DNA from: Georgenia sp. TF02-10
GTDB taxonomy: Bacteria; Actinomycetota; Actinomycetes; Actinomycetales; Actinomycetaceae
NCBI RefSeq assembly: GCF_022759505.1
Contig: NZ_CP094289.1
Location: 1,550,001-1,614,000 of the forward strand
Direction: 5' to 3'
DNA length: 64,000 nucleotides
Shown: positions 60,331 to 61,882 of the stretch, piece after piece
Position numbering within the stretch: position 1 is the first letter of the stretch
How the letters are laid out: every line of letters starts with the position of its first letter
The notes under the pieces: generated by a model
Told to the model about the DNA's origin: nothing
Database searches by the model: none
Seen by the model: only the letters and a program-made list of their open reading frames with translations
Program-made: the position numbers and the translations under genes

Positions 60331-60996
60331 GTGCCCGCGCCGCTGACGGCCACCCCGGCCGACCTCACCGCCCTGCTCGCCCGCATCGCCGACCTGCGCG
60401 GCGGCCCGGGCACCCCCGGCCGCGCCCTCGTCGGGATCGCCGGCGCCCCCGGCGCGGGGAAGTCCACCCTGGCGGCGGTCCTGGCCACCGCGCTGGCGGC
60501 GACCGGCACCACCTGCACGGTCGTCGGCATGGACGGCTTCCACCTCGCCCAGGCCGAGCTCGTCCGGCTGGGCCGCGCGGCCCGCAAGGGCGCCCCGGAC
60601 ACGTTCGACGCCGAGGGGTACGTCGCGCTGCTGCGCCGGGTCCGGGCCCAGCGGCCCGGCGACCCGGTGGTCTACGCCCCGCGGTTCGACCGGGACCTGG
60701 AGGAGCCGGTCGGCTCGGCGGTCCCGGTGCCCGCCGACGCCGCGGTGGTCCTCACCGAGGGCAACTACCTCCTGCTCGACGCCGAGCCCTGGCGGCGCGT
60801 GCCGGACCTGCTCGACGAGACCTGGTTCGTCGCCGCTGACGACGGCGACCGGCGGGCCCGGCTGCTCGCCCGCCACCTCGCCCACGGCAAGGAACTGGCC
60901 GCCGCCCGGGCGTTCGCGCTCGGCTCCGACCAGCGCAACGCCGACCTCGTGGCCGCCACCGCCGACCGGGCCGACGTCGTCGTCCGCTGGGCCTGA
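60331..60996 (+). CDS. Nucleoside/nucleotide kinase-family P-loop protein
   Basis: A 221-residue kinase of the uridine kinase/pantothenate kinase-like group (YggC/FrcK type). The P-loop is VGIAGAPGAGKSTLAAVLAT. VVGMDGFHLAQAELVRLGRA carries the catalytic Asp, followed by GAPDTFDAEGYVALLRRVR, VYAPRFDRDLEEPVGSAVPV and VLTEGNYLLLDAEPWRRVP (Walker B region), then an arginine-rich lid. The substrate could be a nucleoside or sugar such as fructose. GTG 60331 directly follows the methyltransferase stop, so they are probably cotranscribed. Confidence 0.88.
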   Translation: MPAPLTATPADLTALLARIADLRGGPGTPGRALVGIAGAPGAGKSTLAAVLATALAATGTTCTVVGMDGFHLAQAELVRLGRAARKGAPDTFDAEGYVALLRRVRAQRPGDPVVYAPRFDRDLEEPVGSAVPVPADAAVVLTEGNYLLLDAEPWRRVPDLLDETWFVAADDGDRRARLLARHLAHGKELAAARAFALGSDQRNADLVAATADRADVVVRWA

Positions 60997-61040: not shown

Positions 61041-61108
61041 GCATCCTGTGTAGTCGTTGAAGCGCTTTCCCGGGCCCGGGAAAGCGCTTCAACGACTACA
61101 CAGGATGC
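61041..61108. repeat. 68-bp perfect palindrome
   Basis: The arms are 34 bp each with no loop and no mismatch, meeting at 61074/61075 in CCCGGG/CCCGGG. The outer ends read GCATCCTGTGTAGTCG and its complement; the inner part of each arm contains TTGAAGCGCTTTCC, which resembles a LacI-family operator. It lies 44 bases after the kinase stop. It could be a very strong terminator, a double operator, a mobile-element trace or a library artefact. Confidence 0.95.
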
Positions 61109-61201
61109 GGGGCGCCGGGTGGGCTGGTCCTGACTGGATGCGGAGCGCCGGGTGGGCTGGTCCCGACTGGATGCGGGTCGCCCGGTCGACTGGTCCTGAC
61201 C
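61103..61201 (+). repeat. Three 33-bp tandem repeats
   Basis: Units at 61103-61135, 61136-61168 and 61169-61201 each begin GGATGCGG and end GGTCCTGAC or a close variant. The first overlaps the right end of the palindrome by six bases (GGATGC), so the repeat may have arisen with it. An in-frame translation reads MRGAGWAGPDW repeated, but no gene is supported. Confidence 0.85.
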
Positions 61202-61289
61202 GGGCCTGGTCTGCGCGGGCGCGGCGGTCCTACCCTGGGCGGGACGTCGCCGAGCCGCGGCGGCGCACCGGCACGGCGAGGTGGTGGCG

Positions 61290-61676
61290 ATGAGCGGTCG
61301 CGTGGTGCACTTCGAGATCCCGTTCGACGACGGCGAGCGCGCCCGCGCCTTCTACCGCGCGGCGTTCGGCTGGGACATCCAGGAGATGCCCGAGCTCGGC
61401 TACACCTCGGTCCGGACCGGCCCGGCCAACGAGGACGGGTTCCCGGCCGAGCCGGGGTACATCGGCGGCGGCATGATGGCCCGGGAGGCCTCGCTCCCGG
61501 CGCCGGTCGTCACCGTCGACACCGACGACATGGACGACGCCCTGGCAAGGGTCGTCGAGCTCGGCGGCGAGGTGGTCATCGGCCGCACCGCCGTCGCGGA
61601 CATGGGCTACGCCGCCTACTTCCGGGACACCGAGGGCAACGTCATGGGCCTCTGGCAGGACGCCCCGAGCGGCTGA
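61290..61676 (+). CDS. VOC-family (glyoxalase/bleomycin-resistance fold) protein
   Basis: A 128-residue two-repeat VOC protein. The first half is VVHFEIPFDDGERARAFYRA, AFGWDIQEMPELGYTSV; the second has VVTVDTDDMDDALARVVELG and YFRDTEGNVMGLWQDA. The paired His/Glu positions suggest a metal site, but the substrate is unknown. ATG 61290 is preferred; GTG 61281 is nine bases upstream in the same frame. Confidence 0.88.
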   Translation: MSGRVVHFEIPFDDGERARAFYRAAFGWDIQEMPELGYTSVRTGPANEDGFPAEPGYIGGGMMAREASLPAPVVTVDTDDMDDALARVVELGGEVVIGRTAVADMGYAAYFRDTEGNVMGLWQDAPSG

Positions 61677-61833: not shown

Positions 61834-61882
61834 TTTACGGCACGCCCTCCTAGCGTTATATGGTTAGGCAATGCTTACCTCA
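61834..61882 (+). promoter_or_regulatory. Iron-regulated promoter with DtxR/IdeR-like box
   Basis: TTTACG (61834-61839), a 16-base spacer and TTATAT (61856-61861) form a promoter. The sequence TTAGGCAATGCTTACCTCA (61864-61882) matches the DtxR/IdeR consensus TTAGGTTAGSCTAACCTAA at about 14 of 19 positions and covers the start codon of the siderophore-interacting protein. Fe(II)-bound DtxR/IdeR would block transcription when iron is plentiful. Confidence 0.75.

Follow-up and report, generated by a model that had tools for sequence, protein, structure and literature searches.

A perfect 68-nt palindrome of Georgenia sp. TF02-10 is one copy of a dispersed hairpin family, probably a non-autonomous mobile element

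Introduction

REPINs are doublets of REP units that form hairpins and are mobilized by RAYT transposases, as described in the accessible text of two studies (PMC3116915, PMC2817692). Two other kinds of short repeat are treated in the accessible part of PMC10969869: MITEs, which are short, non-coding and dispersed, have terminal inverted repeats and lack a transposase of their own, and the Rickettsia palindromic elements (RPE), which measure about 150 bp and of which nearly half lie in genes.

The DNA analyzed here, referred to as the window, is a stretch of 64,000 nt from Georgenia sp. TF02-10 (contig NZ_CP094289.1, positions 1,550,001 to 1,614,000). It holds a palindrome that proved to be one copy of a family of hairpins, and as far as the accessible descriptions go, the nearest described kind by behavior is the REPIN. 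Both consist of two inverted units forming a small symmetric hairpin, occur dispersed and mostly extragenic in several sequence groups per genome, and have a less conserved middle (PMC3116915, accessible text); compensatory changes on both sides of the hairpin and some tandem arrangements that include flanks are further points in common. Set against the REPINs described there, the center here is only a few nucleotides long and the copies number in the tens, not hundreds. The family also agrees with the MITEs of the accessible text of PMC10969869 in being a short, non-coding, dispersed unit with terminal inverted repeats and no transposase of its own. It differs from them in having almost no internal sequence and no target-site duplication, and no autonomous element with the same ends was seen among 150 scored of 1421 first-look candidates. 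Like the RPE of that description, a palindromic repeat can sit in frame inside a protein gene, although only 1 of 31 copies here lies in a called gene and the two are likened by description, not by sequence. The best reading is that the family works like a REPIN or MITE while missing tested hallmarks of each.

The Palindrome in the Window

The features of the locus are as follows (window coordinates).

61041..61108, no strand: palindrome, a type A member of the hairpin family (direct comparison and genome search)
61042..61071, + strand: left arm, conserved among type A copies (copy alignment)
61072..61077, no strand: center GGGCCC, varying between copies (copy alignment)
61078..61107, - strand: right arm, inverse of the left arm (copy alignment)
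61103..61200, + strand: 33-bp tandem repeat in three copies, starting inside the right arm (GGATGC) and continuing into the flank
60331..60996, + strand: flanking gene, P-loop kinase (uridine kinase family), context only
61281..61676, + strand: flanking gene, VOC/glyoxalase family protein, start uncertain (61281 or 61302), context only

Positions 61041-61108 form a perfect 68-nt palindrome between the genes for the P-loop kinase and the VOC protein, both on the + strand. Its arms (61041-61074 and 61075-61108) show 100% complementarity and meet without a spacer, as a sequence-only reading of this DNA had claimed when it described two 34-nt arms without mismatch or loop. With independent bases at 76% GC, about 8e-13 loopless 34-nt arms would be expected in the window, and the next-longest perfect inverted repeat there, with loops of up to 8 nt considered, has an arm of 17 nt. 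Comparison with 11 sister copies refined this picture, in that the conserved unit is an arm of about 30 nt and the center of about 6 nt differs between most copies. The palindrome looks loopless because its center happens to be self-symmetric, and this symmetry is luck.

The 33-bp tandem repeat at 61103..61200 probably arose as a by-product of the hairpin. In four places (window 61103-61200, the left flank of L021, L054:1482-1504 and the right flank of L086), tandem repeats or partial arms start at the hairpin edge or next to it and look like products of replication slippage. Elsewhere in the window, the sequence TTAGGCAATGCTTACCT at 61864-61880, at the start of a siderophore-interacting-protein-like gene, resembles what we take to be an iron-box operator.

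Copies in the Genome and Their Three Types

A BLAST search of the organism's own genome with the 68-mer recovered 12 close copies at E ≤5e-13 and one weak place at E 0.0015, the rest being at chance level. A covariance model built from those 12 copies added nine, with a tenth adjoining one of the nine. A second model, from 22 copies with both strands entered, gave at least 60 matches at at least 30 places, and an arm-only model added one further copy, split by another element. The total is thus at least 31 related hairpins, belonging to three sequence types and scattered over one chromosome, a lower bound since the searches scored 150 first-look candidates only. The genome-wide search for the arm that had been proposed from the sequence therefore showed that the palindrome is not unique.

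Thirty copies were assigned to types of 12, 10 and 8 members, with the window copy in type A; the remaining copy (L061), interrupted by an insertion sequence and left out of typing, is type C-like by eye. Each copy comprises two inverted arms of about 30 nt and a tiny variable center, about 65 bp in all. The conserved unit of type A is CATCCTGTGTAGTCGTTGAAGCGCTTTCCC, followed by the center and then by its inverse. Over 29 positions, with the outermost base dropped, the two arms match throughout in 7 of the 12 type A copies; L021, L023 and L026 have one mismatch each, L028 has two, and L029 has ten because it joins two different arm types. Centers differ between most copies, two of which have GTCGAC-type centers. 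Types B and C have an arm core in common, roughly TRGTNSTTGNNGCG, and differ in the outer and inner arm.

Among 19 folded sequences outside type A, the 17 own copies formed near-complete hairpins, some with internal breaks, and so did two palindromes from a related genome (G058). The loops are the variable centers, none of which is conserved. Single arms showed no fold-back: the nine arms tested did not exceed mononucleotide shuffles in stability (z +0.1 to +1.9), whereas seven published REP units used as a control gave z -1.1 to -3.4. This separates the family from REP units, which fold back singly according to the accessible text of PMC2817692.

Most copies have flanks no more alike than control stretches, and their arms are nearly identical. 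For L058/L059 and for L053/L056/L057/L060, the flank likeness extends past the hairpin, and L019 and L021 share a flank of 179 nt at 85%. These shared flanks suggest that part of the spread may be duplication of larger stretches, and the unit may sometimes be larger or seated within another repeat. Two further repeats were observed in the course of the survey. A second, imperfect 50-nt inverted repeat (84% self-complementary) lies near the hairpin at L020:1420-1470, upstream of a transketolase-like gene. At C1:2205175 and 2207943 (L089), same-orientation stretches about 2.8 kb apart are alike over the approximately 190 bases viewed, and each contains a 17-nt arm match.

Arms Changing Together

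Within type A, 7 of 31 pairs have changed on both sides, a number reached in 0 of 500 shuffles; the unconserved outermost pair accounts for one of the seven. Across types (22 copies), 20 of 30 pairs have changed on both sides and 95.0% of cells pair, in a count where both strands were entered as rows, so that cells are counted twice, and where the structure-fitted alignment favors pairing. A comparison independent of that alignment was made on 30 copies, leaving out L061. Sibling arms scored 705.0 in similarity, whereas within-type permutations averaged 631.7 and peaked at 680.2, so that 0 of 5000 reached the observed value. Copy by copy, the sibling was the closest arm in 10 of 30 cases and tied in seven, while another copy's arm was closer in 13. 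Where a paired change is confined to a single copy (CATCG in L027, TGCTTG in L079), either pairing must have been selected for or one arm must have been copied from its partner.

Genomic Placement and Evidence for Insertion

Eleven of the 31 copies lie between tandem genes, nine between convergent and nine between divergent genes, one inside a gene and one was left unclassified; genes were called with a simple codon-usage script, L061 was classed with its inserted transposase as neighbor, and two copies share one gap. Tandem gaps hold 11 of 29 copies, whereas in the window itself 17 of 21 gaps measuring at least 150 nt are tandem, so copies are relatively rarer there. This rarity could come from purifying selection or from a role at transcription units. 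The neighboring genes showed no common theme by eye.

No T run follows the hairpins, with at most three T in 8 nt at the 62 exits, and an intrinsic terminator was rejected on this ground together with the 9 of 31 copies between divergent genes. The bidirectional terminator that the sequence-only reading had offered is likewise not supported, divergent gaps being as frequent as convergent ones, although factor-dependent termination may still occur.

The L028 copy sits in frame within an open reading frame whose product, named by eye, resembles a histidine kinase with a fused membrane domain. The residues encoded by the hairpin are absent from all three compared orthologs (G002, G125 and G019, the three relatives matching both halves in one open frame), which supports insertion of this copy; the linker around it is variable, so the exact ends of the insertion are unreadable. 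Target duplications were not seen across 29 copies (L061 and L087 left out), where the mean best repeat was 2.76 against 2.38 in permutations (P 0.13). No exact empty site was seen in the one strain covered, and movement of the copies is inferred. The earlier suggestion that the palindrome is the trace of a mobile element gains support from the dispersed copies together with this in-frame insertion.

Two copies are split by other mobile elements. The type B hairpin at C1:1890845-1891034 contains a separate 119-nt element (L087:1575-1712, G000:C1:1890874-1891011) with 12-nt inverted ends, GAGCCTGTTGCT, and TGAT duplications. This element also occurs at C1:571153-571271, 2547296-2547407 and 2808730-2808812; the 571-kb copy is identical and is bordered by CCTCCGG and CCGGAGG, so its site is palindromic too, and the two others are 81-83% alike. 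The arm pair at C1:1890845-1891034 had been considered as a structured RNA or a parent MITE, and both were rejected once it was recognized as this split hairpin. In the second case, an IS630-type element with a DDE_3 transposase (L061:374-1507, G000:C1:2758423-2759556) interrupts a type C-like hairpin; the element has inverted ends of 32 nt at 88% and a TA duplication within the hairpin arm. The hairpin at 2759545 had been a candidate for a fourth type beside its own transposase and was rejected as such, being type C-like and split at TA. Joining the flanks of both split copies restores the hairpin (a full hairpin for the type B copy), which indicates that both sites were hairpins before the elements entered.

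Relatives and Databases

The 68-mer matched none of 28 relatives at E 0.001. At E 0.1, model R1 matched 6 of 212 other family genomes, and its strongest match (E 8e-12) was a different palindrome in G058; that genome carries a perfect 68-nt palindrome with other letters (L062, C1:2522481-2522548) and a 48-nt palindrome (L063, C1:2588014-2588061). At E 1, model R2 had matches in 8 of 19 chosen genomes (best 7e-5), including two of the six Georgenia assemblies (best 0.0016). Family arms were absent from the six model R2 loci inspected (L191, L193, L194, L192, L200 and L195), one of which, in Ruania (L192:1500-1550), is a clear hairpin whose arm, GCGAAGGTGTGGTTGTGGTCGT, is unlike the family arms. 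The inspected matches (L062, L063 and these six) were therefore rejected as other hairpins or chance. L062 was found by model R1 and is not listed by model R2, which shows that the first-look filter limits negative results in relatives. The search of relatives for the arm that had been proposed thus returned, within these filtered searches, no match that we read as the hairpin family. When the 10-11 kb surrounding TrmH in eleven relatives were compared together with three fusion-gene loci and the window, the window palindrome was the sole match. Judged by the TrmH-like protein, the nearest named relatives are Georgenia, with identities of up to 68%, which places the host among Georgenia-like actinobacteria.

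The exact type A arm pattern had no match in the genome-contig or viral-contig collections, and a type B pattern had none among viral contigs. Blastn of the window stretch found nothing in plasmids or phages. Rfam gave no match at gathering score for the window region and, for a 188-nt copy, four matches far below gathering scores (best E 0.98). No description of the family was found in titles or abstract openings of open-licence literature. The best reading is that the family is lineage-specific.

Alternative Explanations

We give a probability of roughly 0.7 to the reading that the palindrome belongs to a lineage-specific family of dispersed elements that are short, non-coding and non-autonomous, each of them essentially one long hairpin. 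It is supported by the at least 31 copies in different flanks, by the preservation of the hairpin across three types of differing sequence, by the 30 of 31 copies outside called genes or unclassified with convergent gaps not preferred over divergent ones, and by variable centers without a conserved loop. The failure to see this family in the relatives searched, the two split copies that were hairpins before, and the in-frame copy absent from three orthologs point the same way. It is weakened by the lack of any target duplication or Y1/RAYT gene seen, by the lack of a parent element among the 150 scored candidates, by the shared flanks of some copies, by the copies being rarer in tandem gaps, and by the lack of an exact empty site or second strain. 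The search for Y1_Tnp (PF01797) or RAYT gave no match in the organism's own genome (98.2% complete), with controls positive in 5 of 14 genomes, and could miss a very diverged RAYT.

RNA function is the main rival. The hairpins would then be RNA or DNA structures kept by the host with their pairing under selection, for example as stabilizers of mRNA ends, processing sites, factor-dependent terminators or boundaries of transcription units. Paired changes that preserve the stem and the under-representation of tandem, operon-like gaps relative to the gaps of the window would fit such a role. However, divergent gaps are as frequent as convergent ones (9 vs 9 of 31) and one copy lies within a gene, the centers are unconserved and no T run follows the stem, neighboring genes lack a common theme by eye, and the hairpins were not found in the relatives searched. 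We consider this explanation unlikely.

Still less probable is that the hairpins are remnants or by-products of another process, in which larger intergenic repeats are duplicated and palindromes within them grow and are perfected by template switching during replication, with no transposition-like enzyme involved. Some pairs do share flanks, tandem repeats start in an arm, partial arms stand beside two copies and arms resemble each other within a copy. Most copies, however, share nearly identical arms and no flank above control level, and template switching alone carries no sequence to new places.

The sequence-only reading had also proposed two inverted operators of a LacI-type regulator, which is very improbable. 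The inner arm does contain AAGCGCTT, and the L025 copy is 342 nt upstream of a LacI-family gene, but all 17 exact TTGAAGCGCTTTCC sites in the genome are inside type A hairpins with no single operator sites, types B and C are without the core, the outer 15 nt are conserved as much as the core, and pairing outlasts the sequence. Chimeric reads can take the form of perfect palindromes, but a chimeric-read, adapter or assembly artefact, also raised earlier, is contradicted by the family of at least 31 copies, which differ in their flanks and centers and two of which carry other inserted elements with target duplications, and we regard its probability as negligible.

Proposed Mechanism and Implications

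On the reading as a dispersed mobile element family, copies would have spread by a trans-acting enzyme that recognizes the hairpin or the shared arm core (roughly TRGTNSTTGNNGCG), possibly with folded single-stranded DNA as its substrate. Arm matching would be kept by correction of one arm from the other within the hairpin, or by selection for the fold during copying, and no host function would need to be assumed. A more specific version, which we put forward tentatively, is a hairpin-only mobile element that moves through a folded single-stranded intermediate and a non-Y1 enzyme (e.g., a recombinase acting on folded strands); in each round one arm would template the other, so that the near-perfect palindrome is renewed, not worn down.

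Long perfect palindromes are expected to disappear from bacterial chromosomes. Here, a family of near-perfect palindromes persists, split into three types and still paired. Other mobile elements sit in 2 of the 31 copies, so the hairpins may also serve as landing sites. If the copies move, they would be REPIN-like elements that lack the RAYT to which REPIN mobility is ascribed, and their engine is a testable question. If pairing is renewed by arm-to-arm copying, the family would be a natural record of that process.
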